This document shows, in pieces, positions 2,023-17,845 of a stretch of DNA of 39,405 nt (its first letter is position 1; the number at the start of each line of letters is the position of its first letter). The stretch lies in the IMG/VR virus record IMGVR_UViG_3300041964_000080, positions 1 through 39,405 of that record; one strand, 5' to 3'. Under the pieces are notes generated by a model. That model searched no databases. It saw nothing but the letters and a program-made list of their open reading frames with translations, and was not told the DNA's origin. The position numbers and the translations under genes were made by a program. Source of the stretch: a virus.

Positions 2023-2033
2023 TAAGTTTTCAT

Positions 2034-2154: not shown

Positions 2155-2161
2155 GTTTCGT

Positions 2162-2243
2162 GGACAGGCGGGGTCAGGCTTTGCTTGGACAGGTCGGGTT
2201 TGGCGCTGTTAGGCATGGACGGGCGATGTGAGGTTAGGCATGG
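2162..2243 (+). repeat. pentamer array 2 (GG every 5 nt)
   Basis: GG recurs in one 5-nt register from 2162/63 to 2242/43: 14 of 17 slots are GG, two are TG and one is TG-shifted. It begins just 3' of the hammerhead and runs into the start codon of the next small gene at 2240. Confidence 0.65.
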
Positions 2244-2499: not shown

Positions 2500-2539
2500 C
2501 TCAAAAGCGGTTAGAACACCCAACCAAGAGAATCATTCG

Positions 2540-2794: not shown

Positions 2795-2797
2795 TGC

Positions 2798-2884
2798 CAG
2801 TTTTCACGGCAAGGTTTGGAAAGGATCGGCATGGATCGGCAAGGCAAGGCGGGGCACGGTAGCGTCCGGCTTGGTATGGAGAGG
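2798..2884 (+). repeat. pentamer array 3 (GG every 5 nt)
   Basis: After the header AGTTTTCACGGC, GG falls at 2808/09, 2813/14 and so on to 2883/84, 15 of 16 slots (the exception is CG at 2863/64). It starts four bases after the HicB-like stop, just as array 1 starts shortly after the stop at 2022. Confidence 0.7.
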
Positions 2885-2913
2885 GTAAGAGGTTTAGGCT
2901 TCTTACCCTCTCC
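2878..2913. terminator. 12-bp hairpin between convergent genes
   Basis: GGAGAGGGTAAG (2878-2889) and CTTACCCTCTCC (2902-2913) form a perfect 12-bp stem with a 12-base loop, between the plus-strand HicB-like gene and the minus-strand tail gene. There is no long T-run, so it may act as a transcript-end hairpin rather than a classical intrinsic terminator. Confidence 0.5.
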
Positions 2914-3349
2914 TATTGCAGCGGTTCAAAATCGATAAAATCAAATGTGATCTCAAAGAATGGGATCAAGCCATCTTTAAAGCCAAGGATGCGATTCGCG
3001 ACACTTGAAATCGTAGGGACGGCTCAATCTGCCCAAGTGAAGTCTGGTTCATCCAGGTTGCGGAGAATCTTGCAGATTGCTAGCTGCATCGTCCGAAATT
3101 GCCCCGGCAAGCGCTCCTTCTCGGTCTGCGAGAGCATCAGATACCGCACAATACCCTTGCAGCGCTCCAGTGCCTCACCGCTTGCTTCCGTGCGGTGTAC
3201 AACCAGATAGGGATAGGCAGCAGGGTCAGAGGGTACATGGTCAATGGCTGAGATTTGCGCACAGAGCCTTGCCATCTGTTGTTCAGTTGCTCTTGTAGCA
3301 GTAGGGCGATCGCTTGCGTCGTAGCATCACAGCTAGGGCTAACGGGCAT
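2913..3349 (-). CDS. tail-completion/terminator-like phage protein (frameshifted)
   Basis: Pieces in two frames join into about 145 residues. A start at 3349 gives MPVSPSCDATTQAIALLLQ; a single missing base near 3283 leads into MARLCAQISAIDHVPSDPAA and onward to EPDFTWAD. A TGA at 3024-3026 then interrupts the frame, but the same frame continues as a coding-like segment to FDFIDFEPLQ and a stop at 2913. Either that TGA is a point change or two nearby indels compensate. Size, position after the gpG-like gene and the aromatic beta-rich C-terminus suggest a tail-terminator or completion protein; this is inference from gene order. The C-terminal decapeptide is nearly repeated at the end of the RHH-HicB gene. 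Confidence 0.55.
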
Positions 3350-3811
3350 TTACCGTCCCTCCACGATGAACTGCTCCCAACGGTTAGCGATCGCGCTGGT
3401 CATGCTATCCGTCACAAACAAAAACTCGCGCTTTTTCTGCAACCCGCGCCCCTTGGGGAGTGCCGTGCCGAAAGTGAGCGTGTCGCTGTTGGCAGTGAGG
3501 ATGTTGCGCTTACCGCCCACGGTTAATGATCCAAGCAGCTCACCTGTGTCTCTGAGGATCTGACCGCCACGCCGATCGGGTCGTTGCTTGAGGTAGGCAT
3601 CCGTCAGCGCTGGCCAGGTTCTACCGCCCTGTACCGTGCCACCTGATTCGGTGCCAGGAGAACTGTTGAAAACTTCATCCACTTCGCTCTGGATGATCAG
3701 CCCCGTGTCACGCAGCAGCTCAGTCGTCACATTCGCAGCGCGACCCTGGATCTTTGCCAGCCGATCGAGCACCCCTTGAACGCCTAAAACTTCAACACTG
3801 AACTCGGTCAC
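3350..3811 (-). CDS. virion morphogenesis protein (Mu gpG-like tail protein)
   Basis: About 153 residues from GTG 3811, which has AAGGGGGG upstream; the frame is open further back to 3871 without a better start. The sequence (VLGVQGVLDRLAKIQGRAAN, then IIQSEVDEVFNSSPGTES, WPALTDAYLKQRPDRRGGQI, LRDTGELLGSL, and a C-terminal AIANRWEQFIVEGR) follows the pattern of Phage_tail_S / phage virion morphogenesis proteins: an N-terminal helix, then W...L...Y, then ILRDTGxLxxS. Members act in tail completion or head-tail joining. It abuts the tail-completion gene downstream. Confidence 0.75.
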   Translation of the reverse strand: MTEFSVEVLGVQGVLDRLAKIQGRAANVTTELLRDTGLIIQSEVDEVFNSSPGTESGGTVQGGRTWPALTDAYLKQRPDRRGGQILRDTGELLGSLTVGGKRNILTANSDTLTFGTALPKGRGLQKKREFLFVTDSMTSAIANRWEQFIVEGR

Positions 3812-3824
3812 GCGATCGCCCCCC

Positions 3825-4259
3825 TTAAATCTTTTCAATCTTGCCAGTGCTAAGGAACTTGATCGGCACATTGGAGGCGGTTGCGATCGCGTTCCAGGCT
3901 GCTACTTCTGCTGTAGTTGCCTTACTCAGCAAGGTTGTCGCATCAATCAACTTATTCCACACAATCACCAGCGCATCAACATTAAGCGGGTCCATCGTGA
4001 CGCACCCAACTACCTTTGCAAACTGAGTGTGGTCCTGAGCGCCAAGACGATCGATACCTGCATCACTCAACAAAGACAGCCTGAACTTACTCCAATCAGG
4101 CTCAGGGCTGGATGGGGCAATGGCAGGAATCAAAGCCTCTTCACCTGGGAAGTAGTACCGCCATTTTTGCCCAGTGCAGTAAGCGTAAATATATCCGTCT
4201 GGAGGCTTTTCGGCAGGGTATTGCACCCCATCTTTTACGACTAAGGAGATTTCTAGCAT
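3825..4259 (-). CDS. hypothetical phage protein
   Basis: 144 residues with ATG at 4259, whose first base overlaps the stop of the upstream gene. The N-terminus (VQYPAEKPPDGYIYAYCTGQ, then WRYYFPGEE) is aromatic and beta-rich. The C-terminus (WNKLIDATTLLSKATTAEV, then AAWNAIATASNVPIKF) is helical. No family recognised. Its place among tail-fibre-like genes suggests a virion or assembly role. There is no signal peptide and no membrane segment. Confidence 0.6.
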   Translation of the reverse strand: MLEISLVVKDGVQYPAEKPPDGYIYAYCTGQKWRYYFPGEEALIPAIAPSSPEPDWSKFRLSLLSDAGIDRLGAQDHTQFAKVVGCVTMDPLNVDALVIVWNKLIDATTLLSKATTAEVAAWNAIATASNVPIKFLSTGKIEKI

Positions 4260-4911
4260 TACGGTATGAGTAGAATTTCAAACAGTTCTAACCTGATATT
4301 GTCGGCACTGTTGGTAAGCGTACCGAATACATCAATGACAACATCTTGGGTGGTGTCGATCGTTAGTATTGTCGGAGCGATGTTCGCTGCTCCAGTCGCC
4401 GTATAGTTGGGCGATCCAGCAGGCAAATTCAGAATTTGAGCATTTGACGCATTTCGATTAGCGACAAGACGAAAGACATATCCGGTTTGCGAAGTGCTGA
4501 AACCCGTCGCAATCACCGACTGCCCGCCGAATCTTACTGTCAAAGTTTTGGTGTTTGCGTTGTTGTTGAAACTTGTACCTACTCGAATCTCGATCGCGCT
4601 ATTCACCCCCATCGTATTGGCAGGCATCGTGTAGGATGCGCCAGCAATTGGGTCTGAGTGGTCGTACCCGTGATTGTCTGCTGCGTGTGCAGAGAAAATA
4701 GTCGCCTTACTGCGTCCGTCCCTCCACCAAGCTGGGAGGTGAGCGCTAGAGTGCCCGACGCATCAGGCAGCGCGATCGTGCGGTTAGCGGTCGGATTCCA
4801 TTGCAAATCGCCACTGAACCCATTAAAGAAGCGCAACGTTTTGCTGCCAGCACCGATGCCAAGCTGAAAGATATTAGTGATCGCCCCTTGTAAATCTGCC
4901 AGCTTGCCCAT
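4259..4911 (-). CDS. tail-fibre/receptor-like virion protein (frameshifted)
   Basis: Two frames join into about 217 residues when one A is restored in CAATT near 4650: the first half ends QTQ and continues IAGASYTMPANTMGVNS. The first half carries NPTANRTIALPDASGTLALT, a short motif typical of phage tail fibre and appendage proteins. The second half is Asn/Thr/Ala-rich and beta-predicted. The start at 4911 overlaps the stop of the next gene upstream. It forms a block with two similar neighbours (4911-5608 and 5615-6280), consistent with a host-binding appendage. Confidence 0.65.
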
Positions 4912-5608
4912 TAAGACGGCACCACATAATCAATTTCAATCCGTGCGGCTCCAGCCGATGCGCCCCCTGCGGCATAAGTGGCAATCAGGTTCTCAGCGGT
5001 AGTGTTTGCCGCTAGACCGGGATAGACCTCATAGATCGTGTTTGCTGCTCCCGTCAACAGAACCTGGGTAGCTCCCATATATTTGCTAGTCGTGCCTGCC
5101 ACGCCGATCGACAGTGACGGAGTGCCGTTAAACGGAGTGTCGATAATGACCCGCACGGCTTCGACTACCGCATTCGCAGGCAGCGTGAACAGCGTTAGTG
5201 GTGAAGCAGTACAAACGCCAGAGAGGTGGTGTCAACTGCAAGTTGATTAGTCGAGCCACCCACCGCTGCTAGTTCTAGCTCCAGCACTCCCGCCCCTGTC
5301 CCTGCCTTTTGCCTGAGTACGTGCCCATCCGTGCCTTTGGCGGGCGGCGTGACAATGGTGAGGGCAGCAGTAGCGGCGGCATTGCGTTGCAAGGTGAGCA
5401 GCCAATCAGCGCCCGTGTTAGCTGCATCTGAGTTGATCACAATCTGATCACCTGACACGTTCGCCTGACTGACCGTAATGGCAGCATCAGCGCTGTCTGC
5501 TGGGTTGCGTACGAGCAGATTGCCGGCTGAGTTCTTGAGGTTCACTCCCCCGATCGCAATCTGCAATCTAGAAAGCGAAGTACCGAGCAAGTCGAGAAAC
5601 TTTGACAT
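4911..5608 (-). CDS. tail appendage-like virion protein (frameshifted)
   Basis: About 232 residues once a missing T in GCGTTTG near 5211 is restored; DTTSLAF then runs into CTASPLTLFTLPANAVVEAV and on to EIDYVVPS. The N-terminal MSKFLDLLGTSLSRLQIAI and the Ala/Thr/Asn-rich repeats resemble the neighbouring fibre-like genes. The centre (DQIVINSDAANTGADWLLTL) is typical of trimeric beta-structures. Function is inferred from composition and context; no enzyme motif is present. Confidence 0.6.
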
Positions 5609-5614
5609 TAGACC

Positions 5615-6280
5615 TTAGACCTCCAGAAGGACATAACCCGCGCCTTGAGTTGCCCCCGCGCCTGGTGTGATTGTGAGCAGGATCTCAGTAGGGAGAGTGT
5701 AAACGTGCCCTGCGTTGGCTTCGTATTCCGCTGCAAACGATGGATCGATTTGGGTGGGTGCAAGCAACCGTGAGGGCTGTACGGCATCCCCAAGCTGGAG
5801 CGCTGCCCCGATCCCGTCGAATGGTGTGGTGATGACGATCGTGGCAGTGGCAATCAATCCTGCCTGCGTGGTGATCGCTTTTGGTGTTGCGTCCCCATAA
5901 GCAAAGGCAACTTTGAGCAATGAGCTACCTCCTGACGTTGGTGCTGGAGTCAGACCTTGAGTGATAGAGGGGCGGACAATCACATCGCCTTCATAGACAT
6001 AAACAACCGTCTGACTGGCTAGCTCCAGGATCTTGAGGTCGTAGAGGAAGCGTGAGGCTCTCAATGCTTGGCTACTAGGATGCTGCACAGTCACCAGTCC
6101 AGGTGCAAGCGCTAGCAGAAATTCGCTCTCTTTCAGCCCGTCCAGGCTGCGAATCTCAGCTTTAGCGGCATGGGTGGCTTCATCGAGCAGCAGAGGCAAG
6201 CCGTCGAGCGATCGCACTGGCAAACCCACGGCATAGTCCTCCCCCTGCTTAAACTCATGGCGGTAATAGGTGCCTACCAC
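5615..6280 (-). CDS. tail appendage/virion protein
   Basis: An intact 221-residue gene. The N-terminal half (MVGTYYRHEFKQGEDYAVGL... AEIRSLDGLKESEFLLALAP) is a compact domain. The C-terminal half (TIVITTPFDGIGAALQLGDA ... NAGHVYTLPTEILLTITPG) closely resembles in style the C-termini of the two downstream fibre-like genes, notably the TPFDG/TPFNG element shared with the 4911-5608 product. This suggests related receptor-binding or fibre subunits. The start overlaps the end of the connector gene by a few bases. Confidence 0.65.
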   Translation of the reverse strand: MVGTYYRHEFKQGEDYAVGLPVRSLDGLPLLLDEATHAAKAEIRSLDGLKESEFLLALAPGLVTVQHPSSQALRASRFLYDLKILELASQTVVYVYEGDVIVRPSITQGLTPAPTSGGSSLLKVAFAYGDATPKAITTQAGLIATATIVITTPFDGIGAALQLGDAVQPSRLLAPTQIDPSFAAEYEANAGHVYTLPTEILLTITPGAGATQGAGYVLLEV

Positions 6281-6743
6281 TGCACAAACCTCGCATCGAT
6301 CCGAGTGTCAGAGATGATGACTGCTCTCTGTCCCGCGATCGTCAGATTACGTGCGATCGGTGGTGGCGGTTCCGTGGCTGGCAGCTCACCCTCTAGCGCG
6401 ATCGTGCCACTGATGATCGCCTCTAGCTCACTAGCAAACTGGGAGCACATAAGCTTCCCAAAGCCGCCCGCTCTCCGTGCCTCTTGCCCCACGAAATGCG
6501 TGCCCATCAACTCGCAGATCACGCCCTTTTCCACGACTGAAGCCAGCAGGGGAGAAGATAGAAGAGTAAGGGCAGTTTGTAGACCGTGCCGAGCCGCGCA
6601 TTCACCCGCGCCTCAACCTGCAAGCCAACCTGCTCCAGCAGGTTATTGTCTACCGTGGTTGGTGCAAACGGCACTTGGGAACCGCCAACAGTGAGCCGTC
6701 CTTTGAGCCGATTGGCGATCGCTTCTTTGGTGGTGTAGAGCAA
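6274..6743 (-). CDS. head-tail connector, gp36/DUF1320-like (frameshifted)
   Basis: One missing C in CCCTT near 6565 splits the gene; repaired length is about 156 residues. The N-terminal half (MLYTTKEAIANRLKGRLTV ... NLLEQVGLQVEARVNARLG, then TVYKLPL) matches the usual outline of small connector proteins: an initial helix followed by a helix ending in R...Y.LPL. The second half holds CELMGTHFVGQEAR and a hydrophilic tail. Gene order after the major capsid gene fits a head completion role. Family assignment is by pattern and moderate. Confidence 0.6.
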
Positions 6744-6751
6744 AGTGCCAA

Positions 6752-7844
6752 TTACGCCACCTTACGAGCAGCTAAGCGACGTGGGTCAGCAGCTAGGGGG
6801 ATCATATTTCCGACCGCTACCGTTCTTTCCTGTCTTGGCGCGTCATTCAGTACGCGAGAATTTTGGTAAAGACCAGGAGCAAAATCTTTCTCAACGGTGG
6901 GCACAAAAGCCTGCTCTAGAAACCCTGGACTGCCGAAAAAGTACCAATTTTCTTCGAGATAGTATTTGTCCGTTACATCACCCGCTGAGTTCTCTTCCGA
7001 GTATTGCGCGTCAAAGATTTCGACGGACGTGCAACGTGTGCGCTCCCTGATCAGGTCTATGACCTCTTGATCAGAGAGGTACACACTAGCCAGGTCTGTG
7101 CTGGCAGTGTTCGATCCCATCTTGGCAAGCTTGGCAGTCTTTGCTTCGTTCGTGTTGGCAATTTGCCTCAGCGAGGTGAAGTGCAGAACCAAGGTCGGCA
7201 TCCACATTCCAAGATTGTCATAGATGATCCGTGCGTGATCCTCTAGGTTTTTAAGTGGTGTTGCAGTTGCCGCTTGAGACCATCGGGCAGCGCCAGTCAG
7301 AGGTGCTGGAAGGTGAGCCGGAACGATGTCGGGATAGCTCAGTGTGAACTTAGCGCCTGTGATTGGATCGGTGAAGGTTGCGACCTGTCCAGTCGCGACT
7401 CTCATTGTCAGAACGAGCGCTTTCTCATTGATTGCGGGCACCAAATCAGCCACAGCACCGAAATAATGCTTCTCCAACCCAGCAACTACCTGAGTGCCTA
7501 AATAGCCCATTGCTGATGCCATCATCTTCATCTTCTGCATCATCTCGAAGTCACGGGCAAGCCATATGATCTGCTTGCCTAGCTTGCAGTTGCCAAGCAG
7601 ATCCTCAGTCATCTGCGCTCGTGGGCGGGAGGCTGGGATCTCCTGCTCTTCAGCAACCAGCGATGGCCTACTGTCGGGCGGTGGTTTTTCATCTTGAGAT
7701 CAGGAGCGAGCGATCGACATAGCTCGTTCTGGGCATGAGCGCATCGATCGGGGCTGTCCCTTCTAGGAGGCGAAAGAAGGTTTGATCAACAATTTTGTCG
7801 ATCTTGCGCTTTTCTCGGTTCAGGTATTCAACAACGGATGGCAT
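6752..7844 (-). CDS. major capsid protein, phage capsid E-like (frameshifted)
   Basis: ATG at 7844 opens MPSVVEYLNREKRKIDKIVD; one surplus base near 7700 shifts the frame into DEKPPPDSRPSLVAEEQEIP and then MTEDLLGNCKLGKQIIWLAR, which runs to 6752. Repaired length is about 364 residues, normal for capsid E-type major capsid proteins. Recognisable elements are MKMMASAMGYLGTQVVAGLE, FTLSYPDIVPAHLPAPLTG and the C-terminal PGLYQNSRVLNDAPRQERTV. It lies next to a decoration protein and a connector, the standard capsid order. The N-terminal 45 residues would be missed by a gene caller that does not allow the shift. Confidence 0.75.
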
Positions 7845-7907
7845 ATTTTTGGGTAGGTGAGGGAGTAGTAGAGAAGCTCAGAGTGAAGGGTTGAGAAGAT
7901 GGAAAGC

Positions 7908-8482
7908 TCAGACGAGCGTGATCTCAGGCAACTTCGCCTGGAGTTCATCGTTCCAGAAGGGGAGGCGATCGCCGTACACGCTGCATGAGGTGTAGCAAGC
8001 CACATCGTTGCTGAACGCAGACAGGTCGATCACACTCAGCACCATGCCCAGAATGTCATCTACTGAGCCAGCGTCAGCAGCTAGCAACGCATCACCCACA
8101 GCCACCGCTACCGCTGCATTCGCCGTGAGCATGATTGTCCCCGCACCAATCGCCTCGACAGTACCGACAGTTGTGCCTGCGGTTGAAGTCAACTTGATGA
8201 CATCCCCAGGCTTGAACAGGTTCGCGTTCCGCACAGTTAGCGTGTCGCTACTGGTAGGGGTGGCAGCTTTTGACTTGTGGTAGCTGGATAGAGGCGACCA
8301 TACCCATTCGGCAATTTAGTCACCAATGAACCAGGCAGGATAACTTGCTGCCCGTTAGGGTCAAGTGGAACAGTCGTTAAATCAATGGTCTTCATCCGTG
8401 GCGATCGCAATCCCTGCTCAGAGAACAGGACATTGAGATCGGTCTTTTCAAAAGACGTAGAGCGGAGAAACATATCAGGCAT
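7908..8482 (-). CDS. head decoration protein (frameshifted)
   Basis: Repaired to about 191 residues by restoring one A in CAAAAG near 8275, which joins YPATTSQ to AATPTSSDTLTVRNANLF. The middle has the alternating beta pattern of small decoration proteins: LFKPGDVIKLTSTAGTTVGT and then GTIMLTANAAVAVAVGDAL. It sits between scaffold/protease and major capsid, the classic place for a gpD-like cementing protein. A C-terminal YGDRLPFWNDELQAKLPE is conserved-looking but unrecognised. Confidence 0.65.
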
Positions 8483-8524
8483 GGCAGTTACTCAATGAGG
8501 GTGAAAAGCGACAGGGCGACGGGT

Positions 8525-9848
8525 TTAGTAGAGCTTGGGCGGCGTGTACTCAGCGACGAACGCCGCCACCTCTTTGTCTACCTCGTCTGCCGTAGGGGCG
8601 GTCAAATCACGCTCGATCGGCATCCCAAACTTGACCGTTGGGGCAAACTTATCAAGTTGCCCCAAGTAGTATTCCAGCCCTGTCAAGTTCTGCTCAAAAC
8701 TATTCAGCGTTGTCTCTGCTTCTTCCACTTGAGCCGCACTGAACTGAGCGATCGTAGGAGCCGCTTGGGTCGCAAATTTGTCGTCGAAGTCAGCGGGGGT
8801 CATCTTGCCAGCAGCAACTAGCGCTGTGCCTTTTGTACGAGCAGCAGTGAAGCGATCGCCCAAAGATTCGCGACGAGAGAACAAGGCAAGCTGGCGATTC
8901 TGCGCCGCTAGTTGCTGCTCGGTAGCAGTCTTGCCTTCCTCTAACGTTTTGATTTGTGCTGCCATCTGTTCTAAATTCATGTTCTTTCCAAAGAGGGGGA
9001 TAGTGGTCAACGGTTCAGGTGTGGGAGCAGGAGCGGACACTTGCAAGCGGTTGCGGAGTTGAGTGATGTATTCCTCCACCGCTTTGGTTCTCAACGCTTC
9101 AGGGGTTTCCCCGTTGAGCTGGTCAGGGTTCTCGCTGGCTGTTTCACGGATGTCAAACAGCGTGTCCATAAAGGCATGGAAAAGATCCCAGAGTTGCATC
9201 TGAGCGCGCTCGATCGCATCCTCTTGTAACTGGTCGCTTAGCGTCAGGGCATAAGCAAGCATCGCTTTGAAGTGCCCGATCGCTTGCTCTGGTGACGGAG
9301 GACTGCCAGTGGAAAACAGCGCCGCCCCTGCAGTGAAGGGATGGAAACAGCGCTGACCTCTACGATTTCATTGTTTGGCGTGATGCCGACTGATAGCTCC
9401 TTGAGCCTGCCATCACGGTACTGATCAACGTTTGCCGCACCAGAGATTTGCACCATCCCGAAGATGCCAACTTTGCCAACGAGGTCAGTGAGTCCCGGTA
9501 GTGGCAGGTTATCGGCGCTGATCTCCTCAGCCGTCACATCGCCCAGTCAAGAACCCGATCGTGCTGCTCTGCGAGATGTAGTGATCCTGACTGCCAGCGT
9601 ACAGCTTGACCCGCCGCCCACCTGCCATCCATTTGTTGGTTGCGTCCGCGATCGCCCGAATCTTGGCAGCGTTGTAGGTGGTTGCCTTGCCCTCCATGCT
9701 CGTGTGCTTGCCTTCGTAAAACAGCAGGCAGCGCACTTGCTAAGGTATCGCTAGCAGGCGCGTCAGTCGCCAGTAATCCCGCTGTCTGGAAGTGAGCTTT
9801 CGGCTGGAGCGGTGCTACATAGTGGAAGGACAGAGGGCATGGGCGCAA
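8525..9848 (-). CDS. prohead protease fused to scaffold (three frameshifts)
   Basis: The N-terminal part has the look of Mu gpI-type proteases: FYEGKHTSMEG, RAIADATNKW, VGIFGMVQISGAANVDQYRD, GRLKELSVGITPNNEIVEVS. The C-terminal part is a helical, Gln/Glu-rich scaffold (MNLEQMAAQIKTLEEGKTAT ...). Frames change near 9730, 9540 and 9308. The middle junction reads FLTG-DVTAEEIS and the last SLQG-AALFSTGSPPSP. Net shift is +1, matching the gene length modulo 3. The start is TTG 9848 or an internal ATG a few codons later. The protease would trim capsid proteins during head maturation. An internal scaffold-only start (LFGKNMNLEQMAAQ) is plausible. If the indels are real the enzyme is dead. Confidence 0.65.
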
Positions 9849-9899
9849 ATGTCAGGGTTTCATGACATTATGCCCTCTATCAATCGGATGTACTACTGT
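9847..9899 (-). promoter_or_regulatory. 53-bp promoter-like repeat, copy 2
   Basis: This is the partner of 686-738, with four mismatches. On the minus strand it contains CATAAT and the AATGTCA/TGACATT inverted repeat and ends directly at the start of the protease/scaffold gene, downstream of the split-intein C-terminal gene. Position suggests a second late promoter that restarts transcription after the inserted endonuclease gene. Confidence 0.55.
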
Positions 9900-9918
9900 T
9901 CCAATGAAATTGGGCGTG

Positions 9919-10254
9919 TTAGGTGTTCCAACCTTTGGGCAATGGCTCTAACTTTCGATTGGCTAACTGTCTGTCTGGGTCTGCCGCCCATTCTCCGTGA
10001 GTCGGGTTGATGCTGCCAGAAAGTACTGGGCTGAGCGTACTCCTACAACGTCCGTGGAGACTGGGCTTGTTGGCTGCGATCGCTGCTTGGTCTGTCACAG
10101 GTATGACAAGCCCGTTACGAGATCGACAGATGGCGGAGTTGTGAAGTACAACACCATGAACGATGAAGCTTTCATCTTCATCAACCTCAATGTCATAAAC
10201 ATCAACTCCGTCTTCAACTTCAAAGATTTCGACGCTGACTACCCGTGTTCCCAT
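9919..10254 (-). CDS. C-terminal split intein plus MuF C-extein
   Basis: From ATG 10254 the first 39 residues (to 10138) are an intein C-fragment: VDVYDIEVDEDESFIVHG with block F/G features and the terminal VVLHN. The next residue, Ser+1, begins the C-extein SAICRSRNGLVIPVTDQ, ending in HGRCRSTLSP and a short tail. After splicing, the extein completes a MuF head-morphogenesis domain: D.RT from the N-part meets ..C...G, and the HxxCR end is present. The start overlaps the HNH gene by 16 bases, so translation is probably coupled. A longer frame to 10317 lies inside the HNH gene and is less likely. The catalytic His-Asn pair and Ser nucleophile are intact. Confidence 0.85.
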   Translation of the reverse strand: MGTRVVSVEIFEVEDGVDVYDIEVDEDESFIVHGVVLHNSAICRSRNGLVIPVTDQAAIAANKPSLHGRCRSTLSPVLSGSINPTHGEWAADPDRQLANRKLEPLPKGWNT

Positions 10255-11117
10255 AAGGCAAGCGGCAACTGTTTGCACTGGATTTTGTGTTCTTCCACAA
10301 GATGACACGTTTTGCAAAGGCTAATCAGGTTGCTCAGGCGATTGGCTTCTTTTGCCGTAGCAAAATTGTGAAACGGCTCAATGTGGTGAACATCAAGCAA
10401 GCGTCCAAACGTCTCCTGAGTAATGCCGCAATGCTGGCATTTGTGACCATCGCGCTTTCTGGCTTTGGCTGCGATCGAACGCCATCCCCTAGTGCTGCAT
10501 CTGCCAGTGCGGTTGTTGATGGCGGTTAGTCCACCTTTCCACATTGGCGATCGTTCACCAGCCGTAGCAATGCCGATTTTTCGCTTTCGCTCTTCGTTAT
10601 TGGAAATCCAAGCAAGAGCACAGGCATCAGAGCAAGTCATCCTGCGCTTGTAAACTATTTTGGTCTGTCCGTGACTGTTGAGCCGGAAGGCGACACCTTG
10701 AAACAAAACACCGCAGTTAAGGCAATGGACAGGCTCAGGTCGATTGCTGGCAATCTTGCACTCCTGAGAGCAGTAGATTGGCTTAGACTTTTGCCTGCCA
10801 GCGTAGGTTTCGATCGCAGTGTCACAGCCTTTGCAGTTGATAAATGTTTTGGCTGTATGGACAGCAAGGTAGCAAGTGCGTGAGCAGTAGCAATTCTCCT
10901 GAGGAGAGCCATCTCTCTGCTTTTGATTTTGCCGCCTGTACTGCTTGCCGCAGTGAGAGCAAAGCTTGGGCGGATTCTTGAAAGGATACTTACCTTTGTA
11001 TGCGCCCGCTTTTCTGGCTGTAAAATAACAGGCTTGACTGCAATACCTGTTAGCCTTTCGCGATCGTGGGCTAAAGCTGGTGCCACAAACAAGGCACTGT
11101 AAAATTGAATTGGTCAT
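10239..11117 (-). CDS. free-standing HNH homing endonuclease with zinc fingers
   Basis: 292 residues, ATG 11117 with GAGGAAG upstream. The N-terminal two-thirds contains four CxxC...CxxxC units (CLVCG, CSHCGKQY, CKGCDTAI, CLNCGVLF), likely zinc-binding modules for DNA recognition. The linker has GERSPMWKGGLT, an NUMOD-like motif seen in homing enzymes. The C-terminal HNH core is KCQHCGITQE, LDVHHIEPFHNF, NLISLCKTCH. The gene is placed between the two halves of a split intein in MuF, so it can spread the cassette by cutting intein-free alleles. It overlaps the C-intein gene. This matches the reported fractured-gene arrangement of split inteins with an intervening endonuclease; the enzyme family here is HNH. 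Confidence 0.85.
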   Translation of the reverse strand: MTNSILQCLVCGTSFSPRSRKANRYCSQACYFTARKAGAYKGKYPFKNPPKLCSHCGKQYRRQNQKQRDGSPQENCYCSRTCYLAVHTAKTFINCKGCDTAIETYAGRQKSKPIYCSQECKIASNRPEPVHCLNCGVLFQGVAFRLNSHGQTKIVYKRRMTCSDACALAWISNNEERKRKIGIATAGERSPMWKGGLTAINNRTGRCSTRGWRSIAAKARKRDGHKCQHCGITQETFGRLLDVHHIEPFHNFATAKEANRLSNLISLCKTCHLVEEHKIQCKQLPLALWEHG

Positions 11118-11147
11118 CGTACTGCTTCCTCAGTAGGTTGACTATTG

Positions 11148-11170
11148 CAGGGGTGCTGATAACACCCCTG
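11148..11170 (-). other. hairpin abutting the stop of the N-intein gene
   Basis: CAGGGGTG (11148-11155) and CACCCCTG (11163-11170) form a perfect 8-bp stem with a 7-base loop. The hairpin begins at the base next to the stop codon of the MuF/N-intein gene and lies upstream of the HNH start. No T-run follows, so it is more likely a translational or RNA-stability element than a terminator. Confidence 0.5.
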
Positions 11171-12222
11171 TTACAATTTTAACACTTCGTCAATCTGCAT
11201 ACCAGGCTGTAATGCCTGCGCTTCAACCCATTCAGCGTTTGACAAGTACAAATGATCGTCTGTAGAAACAATCTGAGCGCCATTGGATAGAGTGACACGC
11301 ACCATACGTTTTTTTCTGGCTTTCTGGGTGGCTATCACCTGTCTTGGCTGCCTAGAGCCACCCATCACCATTTCTTTTGCCTGAATATCAACGATCGCCT
11401 TTTGGCTACCGTCAGCCATTGTGATCAGGGTTTCAGCAACTAAGCAAGTGCGTTGATCGCTAATCGCCAGAAAACGGAAGTGAGTCACGATCGACGATTG
11501 TAGAGCGGTTGTAACACGCGATGTATTATAACTTGTCGTTAATTCCGTCCTGGCGATCGTCTGCGCTCTGACTCTCCCCACATTCAGATCAGCCTGAATC
11601 CTGTCTAACAACTCTTTCCGGCTCAACACTTTCCCAGATGCATCAGGTGAGATTGCGCCAATCAGTGACACCTTGAGCTTCGCCAGTTGGTCATCCCCAA
11701 AGTTGCCAGCGAGTTGAATCGTGCGCCGTAACACTGCCTGTTCTGCTGCCGTGTTGACGATCGCTCCCGGTTGTAGTTTCAGGAGAGCCGCGATCGCATC
11801 CTTCTCCTGAGCCGTGGCAAAAGCTTGAGGGTGAGGAGTGAGGAGTGAGGAGTGATGAGTGATAGCGAACCTTCTGCCTTCTGCCTTCTGCCTTTCACTC
11901 TCTGGCACCGCCGCAATCATCTCCCTGATCATGTGAGCGCTGCCAAGTTGCCAGCCGAGCGACCATACCGAGAAGATCGGAGCCTGAAGCGCCACGCCTG
12001 CGCTCCATTCGAGCGACTGGATGCCTGCCACATCTCGCGCTGCCAGAACACCCCTGCTCTCTCTAGCAGGCTATTGGTCTGCTCCATCAAGATGCGAGTT
12101 GTTGCTCAATGCTGGCGTTCTCGAATGGCATCCAGCGCTTGCTCAATGTCCGCGATCGGGATGAGGGGGCGATCGCTTTCAAAGGGTACTTTCAGGGCTG
12201 CCGTAAAGACGCTATCAAACAT
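11171..12222 (-). CDS. MuF head protein N-extein plus N-terminal split intein (frameshifted)
   Basis: The N-extein starts at ATG 12222 (MFDSVFTAALKVPFESDR) and reaches the frame 11171-12031 after three one-base shifts near 12110, 12090 and 12045. It continues through LNVGRVRAQTIARTELTTSY to FLAISDQRT. Cys1 of the intein is at 11446. The 91-residue N-intein shows block A (CLVAETLITMADGSQ) and block B (NGAQIVSTDDHLYL, TxxH present), then ends at a stop after QIDEVLKL. MuF proteins act in capsid assembly, near the portal; without trans-splicing to the product of 9919-10254 the conserved Cys-containing MuF core would be incomplete. A cyanobacterial heptamer repeat is embedded in frame at 11827-11894. 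Confidence 0.85.
11827..11894. repeat. cyanobacterial heptamer repeats (STRR-like) inside MuF gene
   Basis: On the plus strand GTGAGGA/GTGATGA heptamers (11827-11865) are followed by CTTCTGC heptamers (11871-11894). Such short tandem heptamers are a hallmark of filamentous and other cyanobacterial genomes, usually between genes. Here they are translated as a Lys/Arg/Ser/His-rich insertion in the MuF N-extein. Confidence 0.65.
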
Positions 12223-12329
12223 CTGAGACGCAATGATTGTGTACTAACGTTGTACCACCCATGTCTAGCGCTAAGATGTTTGTACTAATGGAACTGTATT
12301 GCGATCGTGCGGGGCTGTGCGATCGCTTT

Positions 12330-12560
12330 TTATTGCCGCTCCAGCCTCGCCCGCACAAAACAGTCCTTAGCCTCAAGCAGCTTACGCATTCCTGCCGACT
12401 TCTCAGCGCTGTCTGGCAAAGCGTCTTCCATGAATTTTTGTAGTTCTGCCACAGGCTTACTAACTTCTTGGAGCGATTCGGGAAGATGTTCGTAAGCAAA
12501 AAACTTATCGACGTTAGTAGGCATAGGTTCGCAGGGTAGTACGGTTGCTGCATCTATCAT
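12330..12560 (-). CDS. Acb2/Tad1-hook-like small protein (candidate anti-CBASS sponge)
   Basis: 76 residues from 12560, or 64 from the internal ATG at 12524. The core runs FAYEHLPESLQEVSKPVAEL, then FMEDALPDSAEKSAGMRKLL, then EAKDCFVRARL. The arrangement F-Y-x-H-P...LP-x-x-x-E-K-x...LxKLxEA...R/A resembles the hook-like helical fold of phage Acb2 proteins, which bind cyclic nucleotides to block CBASS defence. The match is by pattern memory, not alignment, and this version is a diverged branch, so the function is a hypothesis. It lies between the portal-linked coiled-coil gene and MuF. About 100 bases without a gene separate it from MuF. Confidence 0.5.
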   Translation of the reverse strand: MIDAATVLPCEPMPTNVDKFFAYEHLPESLQEVSKPVAELQKFMEDALPDSAEKSAGMRKLLEAKDCFVRARLERQ

Positions 12561-12573
12561 ACGCAGCGGTGGG

Positions 12574-12819
12574 CTATTGCCGCTCGATCGCCTCAGCTTT
12601 AGCGATCGCTGCCAGTGCTGTTTGTTGCCAGCTTGCCGCCTCTAGCTTCCATTCCAGGGTCAGATCTAACCAGCGTTGCGCCTCTGCATCCTTCGCTTTG
12701 AGCGCTGCCTCTAGCTGTACTAGCTGGAGCCGTAGCTCAGTGTTGCGGTGGAGGAGTTCAGAGTTTTGCTGCCGCATGGTGCGGATGTACTCAGCGAGTG
12801 AGCGTAGCACCATTGCCAT
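12574..12819 (-). CDS. small coiled-coil phage protein
   Basis: 81 residues from ATG 12819, which follows GGAGGGGA. The sequence is one long heptad pattern: IRTMRQQNSELLHRNTELRL, then QLVQLEAALKAKDAEAQRW, then the amphipathic LEWKLEAASWQQTALAAIA. No catalytic residues. The start lies inside the end of the portal gene in another frame, so it is translationally coupled to it; a scaffolding or portal-associated role is inferred. The open frame extends back to 12969 but that part is shadow of the portal gene. Confidence 0.6.
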   Translation of the reverse strand: MAMVLRSLAEYIRTMRQQNSELLHRNTELRLQLVQLEAALKAKDAEAQRWLDLTLEWKLEAASWQQTALAAIAKAEAIERQ

Positions 12820-14086
12820 TCCCCTCCATTTTCCAGTAGTCAACACTGCCGCCGAACAAACGCCCCATTGCTGCGATCGGGGTTTCTGGTGGTTCCATCC
12901 CCAGCAGTTCATACCCCCGATCGACCAGTCTTTGATCCGCTGCTGACATGAAGCCCTGCTGCACGGCATTGGTGAGTGCTGCCAGCAGAGCCGATCGCTG
13001 CTCTAACGTCTCCTCGCTTTCAGGTTCAGGGAAGCTGCCGAAATCCGTCACGCTGTCGCCTTTGTTCCACGTGATCAACCGTCTGACGGGGTTCTCAAGG
13101 ATGACTTCTTTGATCTGCCCGACCAGTGAATTGATGATGAGTCCCAGCGTCGATCGATGACCTGTGTTGAGGTTGCTATCGCCCACCCCTGTCGCGGTCA
13201 AAATCGACTCAGGGAACAGCAGTCCCATCAGTTGCAACTGTTGGAGCAGGCGACAAAGCTCGATCAGGAAGGTGCCGTTTGTTTGCTGCTGCAAGGCTTC
13301 GATCCGGTTGGTGATGTCAGTGCTGATGACCGATCGATTGTCCAGGGATTGCAGTTGCGCCAGCATCGCGGTGGGAGCTTGGATGACGACAGGATTGTTC
13401 TCGGCATCCAGCACTGGCGCGCCCGCAGCATCCAGCAAGGGTACGGTGATCTGGCTGTCGGAGTAGCCCACAAGGATCGGGGTTGCTTGTCTCTGAGCTG
13501 CGACCAGGATCTCACCAATCACAATCTTCCAGGCTTTCCACGCTGCCATGACGCGCCGTAGTGCTGCCACGCCGAACGGGTCGCGGAAGGTTAGGTGACG
13601 TTGGTTCGTCACATGGATGATCCTGCCATCCTCACCGCTGTAGGGGATGCGCTCATCCTTCGTACCGCCTCTCACAACCACGTTCTCGATCGCGCCTAGC
13701 TTGCCCTCGAATGAGTAATCAGCAGGGTTGAGAATCTGAATGTCAATCAGTCGATACTCACCCCCTGCCTGATCTACTCCCCACTGAGAAGCGGCGTAGC
13801 CGAACGGGAAGACGCTCATCAGTTCTTCTAGCGAGAGGGCGAGAGAGCCGCGCATCCGCTCAAAGTTCATCCGCATGAACTGCTGGATCTCCTCGTCGGG
13901 GTGAGTGTATTCACCCAACTGCAAGACCGCTAACTGAGTGATCACCTGGAGGGCAGAGCCGACGATCGGACTCGTCTTTGCCAGGTCGAGGTAGTCAGCG
14001 ATCGTGTTTGTGTCGTCACTGGCTACCTCTGCCAGCAGATCGGCAATGAGGCTTTTAATCGCTGGCAGTAAGTTATCTGACGGCAT
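12791..14086 (-). CDS. portal protein, DUF935/Mu gp29-like
   Basis: 431 residues, intact, ATG 14086 adjoining the stop of the upstream gene. Visible landmarks are the helical N-terminus (SLIADLLAEVASDDTNTIAD), then SPIVGSALQVITQLAVLQLG, LEELMSVFPFGYAASQWGVD, YRLIDIQILNPADYSFEGK, and ALRRVMAAWKAWKIVIGEIL. The last is the stem-like region typical of portal proteins. Portals form the dodecameric DNA channel at one head vertex. Position directly downstream of terminase and next to MuF supports the call. Length fits a compact Mu-type portal. Confidence 0.75.
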   Translation of the reverse strand: MPSDNLLPAIKSLIADLLAEVASDDTNTIADYLDLAKTSPIVGSALQVITQLAVLQLGEYTHPDEEIQQFMRMNFERMRGSLALSLEELMSVFPFGYAASQWGVDQAGGEYRLIDIQILNPADYSFEGKLGAIENVVVRGGTKDERIPYSGEDGRIIHVTNQRHLTFRDPFGVAALRRVMAAWKAWKIVIGEILVAAQRQATPILVGYSDSQITVPLLDAAGAPVLDAENNPVVIQAPTAMLAQLQSLDNRSVISTDITNRIEALQQQTNGTFLIELCRLLQQLQLMGLLFPESILTATGVGDSNLNTGHRSTLGLIINSLVGQIKEVILENPVRRLITWNKGDSVTDFGSFPEPESEETLEQRSALLAALTNAVQQGFMSAADQRLVDRGYELLGMEPPETPIAAMGRLFGGSVDYWKMEGNGNGATLTR

Positions 14087-14382
14087 TAGGCGGGTTCGTA
14101 AGTGGCTTCAAAGATGTCGGGTTTGCAAGGGTAAAGCTCTCCCTTCACACCACAAATAATCCAATCATCGACATCAGCCCTCATAGTGCCTTCAAGGGTC
14201 ACGATTTCTATAGCAGATGGGTGGTTAACGCCAATGATTGTTTTTACGCCAGCCTCGTTTCTGCCTTCGTAGGCATTCCGAAACCATTCTGGAAGGGACT
14301 TCCAATCCGAACCCATCAGACGATGAGCATCTCGACAGCGTATAGCCTCAATCACCACAGGCTTCTTTCTAAACTGACCCAT
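14086..14382 (-). CDS. conserved small phage protein (KPDIFEATYE type)
   Basis: 98 residues from ATG 14382, with a strong AAGGAGG five bases upstream, preferred over the upstream frame to 14445. It starts FRKKPVVIEAIRC and ends VKGELYPCKPDIFEATYEP, the two signature ends of a very common phage family of unknown function. The middle contains IEIVTLEGTMRADVDDWIIC. It is usually an accessory gene; here it lies between the portal and a coiled-coil gene. No membrane or signal segment. Confidence 0.75.
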   Translation of the reverse strand: MGQFRKKPVVIEAIRCRDAHRLMGSDWKSLPEWFRNAYEGRNEAGVKTIIGVNHPSAIEIVTLEGTMRADVDDWIICGVKGELYPCKPDIFEATYEPA

Positions 14383-14383
14383 G

Positions 14384-14791
14384 TTAAGCCTCCTTAGCAG
14401 CGGGTTTGGGTTCAGTGCGTTGGTCAACAATGGGCGCGATCGCATCCGTCAAAGCGGCATCGATCGTGTCCTTCAGTTTGGGGTCATCAGTGGGGAATGT
14501 GGTTGGCAAGGCAGAACCATCAACCAGCAATGCCAACTCACTGGAGCGGTTCTCAATGGCTACGGGCACATCCATCACGCTAAACGTGGCATAGGGAACA
14601 CTGCTCTCCCCATACTTTGCGGTTGTCACTTCGCCCTTAATGCCCAGTTCTTTCACCAGCTTCGAGATCTCAGTGGTTGCGTCAGCGAAGGCTTTCTTGC
14701 TCTCAGCTTCTGCTTCTGCTGCTGCCTCTTCCTGAGCTTTACGGGTGGCTTTGATCGACTCAAGGCGTTTCTTGATGTTGGCTTCTAGCAT
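14384..14791 (-). CDS. phage protein with N-terminal coiled coil
   Basis: 135 residues, intact. Residues 1-50 are strongly helical and charged (RLESIKATRKAQEEAAAEAE), the rest is a small mixed domain (GEVTTAKYGESSVPYATFSV). The last residues (RTEPKPAAKEA) are a flexible tail. No family recognised. It sits between terminase and portal and may be a packaging accessory or scaffold. Its end lies one base from the next start. Confidence 0.6.
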   Translation of the reverse strand: MLEANIKKRLESIKATRKAQEEAAAEAEAESKKAFADATTEISKLVKELGIKGEVTTAKYGESSVPYATFSVMDVPVAIENRSSELALLVDGSALPTTFPTDDPKLKDTIDAALTDAIAPIVDQRTEPKPAAKEA

Positions 14792-14827
14792 GGGGTGGGT
14801 GCCTAAAACGGTTGTACTAAGTATGCA

Positions 14828-16162
14828 TCAGAAAATCTTTCGTAGCGTGTTGGGGTTGACAGAAGCGGGGCGGGGTGTGGGTGCTGCCTGCTGCGTCTTG
14901 TGGTTGCGGATGAGAGGTGCATGGCTATACCGAATCGAATCCCAGCAGTGGTTCCATTTATCAACGATCGCTGGCAGGATGTCGCCCGCCGCATTGGTTT
15001 TGTAGCTGTAGAGCCGTGCTTCCTCGATCGTGCGTTGGCACCGTTGGTGGATAATGATCGCGTCAAAATTGCGAAGGTAGGCGATCCCATCTTCCACGCT
15101 GCCCGACCACTTCTCAGCCGCCGTGAGCTTGGGTATGCCGTGGCGCTTGACGTAGCTGATCGTGTCCGGTCGCGAGCAGTCAGCCCGCACAATGTACTGC
15201 TCAATGCCAGGGATGTCGCGATGCCAACGAGCGGCTGTTTCATCCAGCTCTAGCCCAATCTCCCAGGACTCATATTCAATCCAGAGGCAGCGATCGTAGA
15301 TCCAGCTACGAGTAGCAGCAGTTGGGTCAGCCGCAAACCCCCAGTCGCCACCGTGGTAGGGTCCATCCCAACCCTTTCCAGGCTCGAACTCATCAATGCG
15401 CCATTTGCCGCCCAGCACCTGCAACTGTGACTTGATGTTGTAGCCACCCATCCAGACGTGGTTGAAGTAGTCCGTATCGCGCTGGCGATCGAGTTCCATC
15501 TCTGCCAGCGACTCAGCAGGCACCCTAGGATTGTCGCAGTAGTTAACCGACACAACGATCGCGCCCTTGGGTGGTCCTTCTTCGCTCCGAAAGAATTTAT
15601 CGACAGCATCGGTTGGCTGCTCTGGATTCCAACTGAACCAGATCTCAGAACCAGGCGCTCGGATGGTAGGACGCAGGAGGGAGAGCGATCGGGAGCTCAG
15701 GTTCTGCGCCTCTTCCACCCAGGCGATACCAAAGCCCTCCAATGATTTGATTGAGTCTGCTGTGTGGTCTTGCATCCCCTGGAAGATGATGATGCCACTA
15801 CCACCCTTGCGCCGAATCTCGGAGGTCAGGATCTCAAACTCACCGCTCACGCCAAGCTGCTGAATCTTTTTCTCAATCAGCGCCTTAGCGGAGAACTTGA
15901 GCGACTTCTGAATTTCACGGATGCACACCGATCTCAGGTTACTATCCTCGACCATGCGTTGCACCAGTCGCTCTGCAAAGTGGTGAGACTTCCCGCCCGA
16001 TCTGCCACCGTGCGCCCCTTTGTAGCGTGAGGGTTGCTGTAATGGCACTGCCCACTCAGGCACGTCGATCGCGGCGGCTAGGGACTGCGATCGTACCTTG
16101 ACTGGCGGTAGCCATTTATTGAGCTTGCGCTCTTTCCGCTCTAGCCGCTCTAAGCCTTTCAT
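14828..16162 (-). CDS. terL: terminase large subunit
   Basis: 444 residues, intact. The motor of DNA packaging. Walker A is GGRSGGKS (around residue 54), with the nearby RYKGAHG. Walker B is FGIAWVEEAQ (about residue 145), followed by the coupling segment WFSWNPEQPTDAV. The nuclease domain begins near GGDWGFAADPTA and has YIVRADCSRPDTISYVKRHG. This is the PBSX/Terminase_3-6 layout. The start overlaps the small subunit by 47 bases, so the pair is co-translated. The C-terminal Pro/Thr tail may contact the portal. Confidence 0.9.
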   Translation of the reverse strand: MKGLERLERKERKLNKWLPPVKVRSQSLAAAIDVPEWAVPLQQPSRYKGAHGGRSGGKSHHFAERLVQRMVEDSNLRSVCIREIQKSLKFSAKALIEKKIQQLGVSGEFEILTSEIRRKGGSGIIIFQGMQDHTADSIKSLEGFGIAWVEEAQNLSSRSLSLLRPTIRAPGSEIWFSWNPEQPTDAVDKFFRSEEGPPKGAIVVSVNYCDNPRVPAESLAEMELDRQRDTDYFNHVWMGGYNIKSQLQVLGGKWRIDEFEPGKGWDGPYHGGDWGFAADPTAATRSWIYDRCLWIEYESWEIGLELDETAARWHRDIPGIEQYIVRADCSRPDTISYVKRHGIPKLTAAEKWSGSVEDGIAYLRNFDAIIIHQRCQRTIEEARLYSYKTNAAGDILPAIVDKWNHCWDSIRYSHAPLIRNHKTQQAAPTPRPASVNPNTLRKIF

Positions 16163-16502
16163 CCACTACCTTTTGTGTCATGGCTATATCTGCCAGCGTG
16201 TCAGCAGCACTGGAAATTGCGGCGATCGCATCTGGGTCAGTGCGATTGGCAAGCTGTCCAGCCTCCTTCAAAAAGTTAATGCAACTAGAGAGAGCCGCAG
16301 GTAATTCGACCGCCCAGTTCTCATCCTTTGCCTGCCTCAAATCCTGGAAAAAAGCCGCAAAAGACTCGTCTGTGTCAAGCCGCGATCGCCAGTTTTCGAT
16401 GGTTCTGAGCGACACGCCATACTTTTTTGCAGCCTCCTGATCGCCCATCAGGATGGCATCGACTAACGCTTTGGCGGCTCGGTCTTGGTTGAAGGTTGGC
16501 AT
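16116..16502 (-). CDS. terS: terminase small subunit
   Basis: About 128 residues from ATG 16502; a second ATG five codons upstream at 16517 is possible. It carries a helix-turn-helix (ILMGDQEAAKKYGVSLRTIE, then NWRSRLDTDESF) that would recognise the packaging site, followed by a long helical oligomerisation region and a basic-acidic tail (QKVVDERLRAARAERAQAQ). It overlaps terL as expected. The lysis genes lie immediately upstream on the same strand. Confidence 0.8.
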   Translation of the reverse strand: MPTFNQDRAAKALVDAILMGDQEAAKKYGVSLRTIENWRSRLDTDESFAAFFQDLRQAKDENWAVELPAALSSCINFLKEAGQLANRTDPDAIAAISSAADTLADIAMTQKVVDERLRAARAERAQAQ

Positions 16503-16546
16503 TTTTCCATCATGCACTCTGAGGGGCGATCGCAGACAGGTGAGAA

Positions 16547-17074
16547 TTACTGTTTCCCAATGCGATGGAGCCAGATGTCTTTAGGGTTTGCTTCCGATTC
16601 GGGGCTGCATACCCTGGCAATCAACCCGTTACTGTAGTGCAGACCCTCGCCTGAAACGCTAGTGTCATAGCCGCTCGAATGCCATTCACCCCATGGATCG
16701 TTCACAATAAAGCCGCCCCGATCGTAGCCCTTGACGACGATGATATGTCCGAACCGGGTGAAGTACCCATGCAAAACACAGGGCAGACCGTCATCGATCG
16801 CGTCTCTGATGTCTGTCAGCGTGCCACTGGTGGTTAAGTGATCCTTAAGCTTGTAGGACTCGACCAGGCATTGCAGCCCATAGGGGTCGTGGCGTGACCA
16901 GCCTTGATGAAGGCAGCGATCGTACAGTTGATCCTCTAACTGCGGGAAACTACCATCCCCTCTGATGCCGAAATAGTGCAAGCACATCCCGATCGAGGTC
17001 ACGTTGCAACTACCACTGGGATTGAGTTGATTATCGCGCTGGCTGAAGTAAGGGAAGTTTTTGAGTACTGGCAT
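16547..17074 (-). CDS. C39-like peptidase-fold endolysin candidate
   Basis: 175 residues from ATG 17074; the open frame to 17131 adds a non-homologous stretch overlapping the preceding gene. The papain-like C39 fold is clear: an aromatic entry (LKNFPYFSQRDNQ), Cys nucleophile in GSCNVTSIGMCLHY, His in FGHIIVVKGYD and the Asp/Asn site in FIVNDPWGEW. In phages this fold is used in cell-wall hydrolases, here probably cutting peptidoglycan cross-links at lysis. It follows a membrane protein gene by ten bases, fitting a lysin next to a holin-like partner. Confidence 0.75.
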   Translation of the reverse strand: MPVLKNFPYFSQRDNQLNPSGSCNVTSIGMCLHYFGIRGDGSFPQLEDQLYDRCLHQGWSRHDPYGLQCLVESYKLKDHLTTSGTLTDIRDAIDDGLPCVLHGYFTRFGHIIVVKGYDRGGFIVNDPWGEWHSSGYDTSVSGEGLHYSNGLIARVCSPESEANPKDIWLHRIGKQ

Positions 17075-17084
17075 GGGTTGACGG

Positions 17085-17845
17085 TTAAGCGGATTTGTTA
17101 GTAGTGCCCAGTTCCTTGCGCTGTTTCTCAAAATAAATGGCGATACCGCCGCTCACAGCCGTAGCAGCCGCATTGGTCAACAGTTTGCGACTGTCACTGT
17201 CTCCGCCTAAGAGGCTAGCAATAACAACGATCGCCGAAATACTGCTAAAAATAACTGTAAACATCCGGTTGAGACGCTTCTCGGTTTGCAGCAGCCGCTG
17301 TTCCTGATTGTCATCGAGCGCGTTGCGGTGGGCAAGCTGTTCTGCCAGCGAAGCCACTTGTGCTTTTACCTGCTCGTTCTGCTCTACCAGCACCAACACC
17401 TGCTCTTGCAGCAAGCCTAGTAGGTCATGCCCTGTGTAGGTGTCAGAGGAGCGATCGCCTTCGGTGTCAGGGTCATTGATAATCAGCGAGACTTTAGCCG
17501 AGCCGCTCTTGAACAGCGTTAGCTCTAAGCCTGGGTGGAGGGCGATCGCGCCCTGGATCGGCTCACCATGTACCCAGATACCGTTAGTGCTTACCGTTTT
17601 TCGCGACTGCCATCAATCAGCACAATGCCGTCGCCTGTGGACTCGATCGTCGCCTGCACACGGGCAATGCCTTTCGCCCAATCGCCTAGCGTTTTACCGA
17701 TCGGGTAGGTGCAAGTTTCGGAGCGTCCCAGAGTGATTTGCTGTGGGGGGTCGAGGTTGAGCACCTGCTTCGATCGCTCGATCGCTCCCATAAACTCGCG
17801 CAAGGTGGCTGTCAGCATTGAGATTGCCTCGCTTACTGCCTCCAT
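17085..17845 (-). CDS. FHA domain - coiled coil - two-helix membrane protein (holin-like, frameshifted)
   Basis: Restoring one A in the AAAAA run near 17597 joins two frames into about 254 residues. N-terminal: an FHA fold with QITLGRSETCTYPIG, the Ser-Arg-type loop region, then VSTNGIWVHGEPI and LELTLFKSGSAKVSLI. Middle: coiled coil (VKAQVASLAEQLAHRNALDD). C-terminal: two hydrophobic segments (MFTVIFSSISAIVVIASLLG and LLTNAAATAVSGGIAIYF), then a basic tail. FHA domains bind phosphothreonine peptides. The two C-terminal helices beside a lysin look like a holin. Such a fusion is unusual. ATG 17845 or GTG 17854 may be the start. A coiled-coil gene diverges from it at 17902. Confidence 0.65.

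Follow-up and report, generated by a model that had tools for sequence, protein, structure and literature searches.

A probable mobile split intein with its own HNH endonuclease gene in the MuF gene of a phage contig

The window analysed here, that is, the whole 39,405-nucleotide stretch of the virus record IMGVR_UViG_3300041964_000080 (IMG/VR), carries on its minus strand three open reading frames (ORFs) in place of one gene for the phage protein MuF (minor head or head morphogenesis protein). The first encodes the N-terminal part of MuF followed by an intein N-fragment (IntN), the second an HNH endonuclease and the third an intein C-fragment (IntC) followed by the C-terminal part of MuF. With good confidence, sequence comparisons lead us to read this arrangement as a mobile split intein inserted, together with its own free-standing HNH homing endonuclease gene, in the core of the MuF gene. 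This reading is drawn from the anatomy of the locus, the empty site of a near relative (L002), the recurrence of the insertion at the same site in two other phage loci (L012 and L063) and the grouping of these inteins in one clade that shares the HNH gene. The HNH enzyme probably spreads the element.

All parts of the element lie on the minus strand. The N-terminal extein, in the frame of IntN (11447..12031; 195 residues from a GTG at 12031), ends in SDQRT and runs into IntN (11171..11446 including the stop; 91 codons, 11446-11174), which begins with Cys1 (C1, followed by LVAETL) and carries STDDH as its block B motif (TxxH). After a gap of 53 bases (11118..11170), in which GAGGA stands some 10 bases upstream of the ATG, comes the zinc-finger HNH endonuclease gene (10239..11117; 292 residues), which matches PF01844 (8.5e-8) and phrog_1271 (5.2e-26). 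IntC (10138..10254) begins at an ATG at 10254, comprises 39 residues ending in VVLHN and matches TIGR01443 (2.6e-6); its start shares 16 bases with the 3' end of the HNH gene. The C-terminal extein (9919..10137) consists of 72 residues from Ser+1, including HGRCR (HxxCR), and then reaches a stop. IntN, HNH and IntC use three different reading frames, a stop separates the intein halves, and the whole element between the MuF halves amounts to 1.3 kb. An earlier note on this DNA had described intein halves of 91 and 39 residues, the nuclease gene between them and the 16-base overlap, and all these elements were located.

The features of a class 1 intein are all present in the window (C1, TxxH as STDDH, VVLHN and Ser+1). 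The profile search that the note had proposed bears this out: when joined, the intein halves exceed the cut-offs of the Pfam family Intein_splicing PF14890 (5.5e-9; 36.4 bits, cut-off 35.8), of TIGR01445 (25.0 bits, cut-off 24.5) and of TIGR01443 (24.2 bits, cut-off 15.6). The N-part ORF by itself stays under the intein profile cut-offs. The intein is split, its 91 and 39 residues belonging to separate ORFs, and the break falls near the usual endonuclease position, which we take to be the usual split point of inteins. Among solved sequences, the nearest to IntN are gp41-1 inteins, with weak matches (E 0.0075 and 0.011). Structure prediction for the N-part gave a model that is poor as a whole (mean predicted local distance difference test, pLDDT, 46) and better across most of IntN; the 29 top-ranking PDB matches to it all belong to inteins or other Hint domains, gp41-1 being the first (E 1.1e-3). 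For the HNH protein, a fold search with a weak predicted model (mean pLDDT 61) gave nothing at E<=0.001.

The identity of the interrupted gene and the exact T↓S boundary (the arrow marks the splice point), both claimed earlier, are supported by TIGR01641, the NCBIfam minor-capsid profile of 109 positions, whose matches on either side of the insert meet at position 72. The N-part matches positions 14-72 and this match ends at the intein Cys, while the match of the C-part, at positions 72-108, begins at Ser+1. The scores of 28.3 bits (N-part) and 21.9 bits (C-part) refer to the separate halves, not to the joined exteins, and each is below the cut-off of 39.65; the intact homologue of L002 reaches 71.6.

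The empty site is provided by IMG/VR contig 3300041964_000088 (L002, also L049), a mosaic near relative whose portal region is 97.1% identical to that of the window, ungapped over 1503 bases. Its MuF is a single uninterrupted ORF of 874 residues that reads GDARTTPICRSRNG opposite SDQRT, intein and SAICRSRNG in the window; the site is thus empty exactly at the T↓S/T joint (GDART↓TPICRSRNG). The joined exteins of the window share 76% identity with this MuF over 267 residues, ungapped at the joint, and the MuF-C stretch taken separately 71% over 70 residues. In the same way, intein-free MuF proteins from GenBank (Caulobacter phage DMCA, Pseudomonas phage LKO4 and Aeromonas phage pAEv1818) served as comparators: in every alignment reported, the joints of the window, L012 and L063 are ungapped at the splice point against DMCA and LKO4, and those of L012 and L063 likewise against pAEv1818. 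The comparison with intein-free relatives, by which the note had proposed to judge the boundary, is therefore in its favour. Out of 50,697 GenBank phage records, 1055 match the MuF-N+IntN ORF of L012 and 1110 its IntC+MuF-C ORF, and MuF is annotated as one coding sequence (CDS) in 4/4 of those inspected (LKO4, MP1412, pAEv1818 and DMCA). In the Pseudomonas phages LKO4 (L053, 2427-3014) and MP1412 (L054, 2466-3053), a GIY-YIG or putative endonuclease gene is annotated directly upstream of, and overlapping, the intein-free MuF.

The same three-gene organisation recurs in L012 and L063. L012 (3300033997_000310), found with the window HNH as query, encodes MuF-N+IntN at 4942-5931, an HNH with a C-terminal extension at 6001-7107 and IntC+MuF-C at 7071-7607, with the splice joint NRT↓SSICR. 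Its joined exteins count 377 residues, compared with 370-402 in intein-free homologues, and this copy is intact. L063, the third fractured MuF (N 2597-3199, HNH 3283-4179, C 4163-5380), belongs to the 8 loci given by a scan of viral contigs for the DNA pattern G-h-h-h-H-N then S/T/C-x-I-C-R. By reading, seven of these eight are MuF inteins at the RT↓S site (L057, L058, L059, L061, L062, L063 and L064, L059 and L062 being near-identical). In both L012 and L063, the HNH gene lies between the intein halves, overlaps IntC and occupies the same MuF position as in the window. Five loci with continuous MuF inteins were also compared with TIGR01641: in L057 and L064 the stretch that follows the intein matches positions 72-108, in L059 and L061 the stretch that precedes it matches up to position 72, and L058 does not match this profile; its exteins nevertheless match phage minor head proteins.

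In a 14-row tree, the fractured inteins of the window, L012 and L063 form one clade (support 97/95). The window and L063 share 48% identity in IntN and 57% in IntC, as against 32% for the MuF-C exteins and no meaningful match for MuF-N; since the inteins are more alike than the exteins that carry them, this indicates that the element has spread horizontally. The window HNH protein shares 40% identity with its L012 counterpart and 32% with that of L063. Most of their cysteines and several histidines are invariant across the three copies, and the conserved zinc-binding cysteines, together with the PF01844 match, identify the protein as an HNH enzyme. In all three copies, at 31-57% identity, IntN, HNH and IntC are intact and retain their catalytic residues. 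The earlier proposal that the element homes as a unit thereby gains indirect support, from one three-gene element found at one site in three divergent phages with monophyletic inteins.

The mechanism proposed here follows from established intein chemistry. In an intact copy, IntN and IntC would associate and splice in trans by means of Cys1, the block B TxxH, the terminal Asn and Ser+1, and this would rejoin MuF at DQRT↓SAICR. In intein-free MuF alleles, this joint would be the cleavage site of the HNH enzyme, and repair would copy in the 1.3-kb element. Translation of IntC+MuF-C is probably coupled to that of the HNH gene, as the overlap of the two suggests. Splicing, cleavage, homing and coupling are all inferred.

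Several points weigh against a working mobile split intein. No Shine-Dalgarno-like motif precedes the IntC ATG of the window. In L012, a Ser replaces the His before the terminal Asn, and its C-part is under the intein-C cut-off and has no MuF profile match. Only three fractured MuF copies were found, and the MuF-N extein comparison of the window with L012 is too weak to judge transfer in that pair. Moreover, the MuF-N frame of the window that starts at the ATG at 12222 stops after 38 residues, and a cluster of single-base length differences from L002 is found at 12049-12125. In L063, too, MuF-N is broken upstream, by an in-frame stop and a change of frame. Two of the three fractured copies thus look non-functional as sequenced, and the arrangement could persist without splicing.

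The state of the window copy has to be considered accordingly. Its MuF 5' part (12032..12222, minus strand) is homologous to the start of the L002 MuF and is frame-broken relative to the rest; the frame that bears the intein is open only from about 12070, its first start being the GTG at 12031. The N-part is therefore not one open frame back to 12222, as had been claimed. The copy could be inactive or its sequence erroneous, the frame breaks fitting either sequencing error or recent decay, and it is doubtful that it still makes MuF. With an N-half broken in this way, the further claim that capsid assembly in the window phage depends on trans-splicing is not supported. As for the other end, MuF-C has 72 residues to a plain stop, which makes a shorter MuF possible, whereas L002 continues for some 550 further.

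It is quite possible, though somewhat doubtful, that the window locus is a decaying prophage in which the element once worked, MuF is now non-functional and the split serves no purpose. Apart from the frame breaks of MuF-N in the window and L063, this agrees with the shortness of the window MuF-C relative to L002 and with further short frame breaks in the neighbouring gene (about 9330-9842). Against it stand the intact IntN, HNH and IntC of all three copies, and the intact L012. Furthermore, several of the single-base differences, some of those at 9330-9842 among them, occur where the window and L002 are otherwise 98-99% identical, a pattern that would fit errors of sequencing or assembly too. 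In any case, decay of the window locus is compatible with a mobile split intein in the family overall.

A second explanation, which appears improbable, is that the HNH gene homes independently: it would have inserted into the linker of the intein without mobilising it. Halovirus genomes do have zinc-finger HNH enzymes of this type annotated as stand-alone genes. However, three divergent phages have the same HNH in the same place between the halves of inteins that belong to one clade. It is very improbable that a continuous intein was broken up by misassembly: there are frame errors nearby in the window, but the arrangement is common to three contigs, IntN, HNH and IntC lie in three frames, and 6 and 14 stops interrupt the two other frames of the window HNH gene, as many as, or slightly fewer than, codon shuffles give. 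Hardly more credible is a pretoxin-HINT processing domain of polymorphic toxins in place of an intein; PF07591 PT-HINT does match the joined halves just above its cut-off (3.3e-6) and toxin domains can occur on MuF proteins according to the portion of PMC5576092 available, but the segment interrupts the MuF core where relatives are empty and ends in HN↓S, and the main text of that paper never mentions intein or HINT.

Besides the mobile split intein of the window, the same insertion site led to a different type of intein. In five loci, four of MuF (L057, L058, L061 and L064) and one of terminase (L016), a continuous intein ORF encloses a homing nuclease ORF of 254-325 codons in another frame. 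The hidden ORF of the MuF inteins is of DUF559/MTES_1575 type in L057 (886-1824; PF04480 over the cut-off) and encodes a GIY-YIG nuclease in L058 (11829-12593; PF01541 1.9e-7), L061 (4160-5137, minus strand; 4.5e-9) and L064 (6080-7030, minus strand; 2.7e-10). That of the L016 terminase intein (303-1241) is HNH-like, with 19.0 bits to PF01844, below the cut-off of 21.4. In all five, the intein frame is the nuclease frame +2 and holds 0 stops, when synonymous-codon shuffles of the nucleases give a mean of 13-21 stops and a stop-free frame in 0/5000 cases each. Two isolated phages, whose records annotate nothing but the terminase there, show the same organisation with a zinc-finger HNH: Gordonia phage Clown (L051, MT771343; ORF 2400-3527 within the terminase CDS 1817-4576) and Synechococcus phage S-EIVl (L070, KJ410740; 2524-3483 within 1941-4481). 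In S-EIVl, 0 stops compare with a shuffle mean of 16.4 (0/5000 stop-free); the case of Clown is weaker, since its 0 stops compare with a mean of 4.0 and 55/5000 shuffles are stop-free. The intein frame is thus stop-free far beyond expectation in six of the seven dual-frame inteins (four MuF, three terminase). As a control, L003, L004, L009 and L011, all four of them continuous inteins located in other genes, have no inner ORF >98 residues in another forward frame.

The dual-frame inteins are more surprising than the fractured MuF itself and merit separate study. The RT↓S site also houses inteins from which the nuclease is absent (the mini-inteins L059/L062), and since continuous, dual-frame and fractured inteins all occur at this one site, they form a natural series in which to study how split inteins arise. 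It could be proposed, tentatively and with more doubt than belief, that this MuF site is an intein hot spot where the nuclease is absent, is encoded by a separate fracturing gene or lies in the other frame, that dual-frame inteins are a new type, and that loss of read-through is a route to split inteins. If true, loss of the read-through frame would turn continuous inteins into split ones and fractured inteins could, hypothetically, descend from dual-frame ones. A recent origin of the window fracture from a dual-frame intein is supported neither by the frames nor by residual stop counts. IntN is in frame +1 relative to HNH in the window and L063 and +0 in L012, as opposed to +2 in dual-frame inteins, and no clear stop depletion was seen in the other frames of the fractured HNH genes. 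Their lowest count is that of the IntC frame in the window, with 14 stops against a mean of 19.6 (150/3000 shuffles as low).

Other candidates were set aside. The nine C-fragment matches L003-L011 are not fractured MuF genes; they are inteins of the continuous kind and, by reading, lie in other genes. From a second pattern scan (11 stretches), L065-L068 were dropped as having no intein ORF at the match, and L069 is the L012 contig. L060 was not counted as a fractured MuF, its ORF matching only a portal profile and its C-part PF14890 only weakly (0.067). By reading, L060 (5654-9226, minus strand) is a portal-MuF fusion that an intein apparently splits; the linker of this intein is riddled with stops and lacks a nuclease ORF. 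The locus looks like a further decayed case, although this is uncertain. The MuF of L061 (3054-6041, minus strand) apparently has, besides its intein at RT↓S, another one, a Hint that lies within the HxxCR motif at HIN↓CRS. Among the 32 loci of the HNH alignment, clear intein halves adjoin the HNH only in L012. A tblastn search with the C-part against plasmids gave no match, and scans of genome contigs with the HNH alignment and the portal identified no relative and no host genome. The cyanobacterial host proposed earlier is supported by 48 GCGATCGC sites in place of the 0.8 expected, this palindrome being presumably a cyanobacterial marker.

Upstream of MuF, the window encodes a portal protein (12791..14086, minus strand; PF06074 4.3e-11) and a terminase large subunit (14828..16162, minus strand; phrog_3717 2e-50). 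Compared with L002, MuF-N contains a short, repetitive insertion at 11820-11905 that keeps the frame. Downstream of MuF, the following gene (9262-9848) has several broken frames where L002 has one ORF of 433 residues, and intact copies of it exist. Along 6581-17739, stretches of about 100% and 60-80% identity to L049 alternate on a scale of about 1 kb, which could reflect either strong mosaicism or a mixed assembly.

With the mobile split intein of the window, a head-assembly gene would join the genes fractured by split inteins. The intact L012 copy and the intein-free relatives make splicing and homing directly testable, and the new split-intein clade could be of use in protein engineering. 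Dassa et al. in 2009 reportedly described 'fractured genes' in which a homing endonuclease gene separates the halves of a split intein; the window resembles these in its halves ending in IntN and starting with IntC and in the free-standing endonuclease gene between them, and differs in its host gene, MuF, and in its zinc-finger HNH nuclease. The gp41-1 split intein (PDB 6qaz, 6riz) is the top PDB match to IntN in sequence and fold and its fragments are presumably similar in length to IntN and IntC, but the structural match has only about 22% identity and the extein is different. Closer in host gene is the intein with a homing endonuclease in the minor head protein of the Mu-like phage AB09, known, from the accessible part of PMC7468147, as a 0.8-kb homing endonuclease insertion. 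Among the literature matches listed for inteins in MuF, minor head, minor capsid or head morphogenesis proteins, none describes a fractured MuF in its title or the opening of its abstract. For dual-frame inteins, the only precedent among the literature matches listed is the ShiLan domain, an out-of-frame HNH gene in a stop-free insertion of a methylase, which its authors, in the excerpt of PMC11855218 available, describe as without splicing domains; unlike it, the HNH of the window is not nested in an open intein frame, its other frames holding the 6 and 14 stops given above. Fractured genes with intervening endonucleases were already known, as the earlier note had stated, but they are not confined to metagenomes, since the isolated Pseudomonas phage MIJ3 has a split DNA polymerase B intein with the HNH gene orf154 between its halves (PMC6892783, in part). 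In MIJ3 as in the window, each intein half has its own ORF and an HNH gene lies between the two; the same part of that source indicates, for MIJ3, another gene (DNA polymerase B), a block A starting with Ser instead of Cys, and a single phage. Judged from these comparisons, MuF is a new host gene for the known kind of genes fractured by split inteins.

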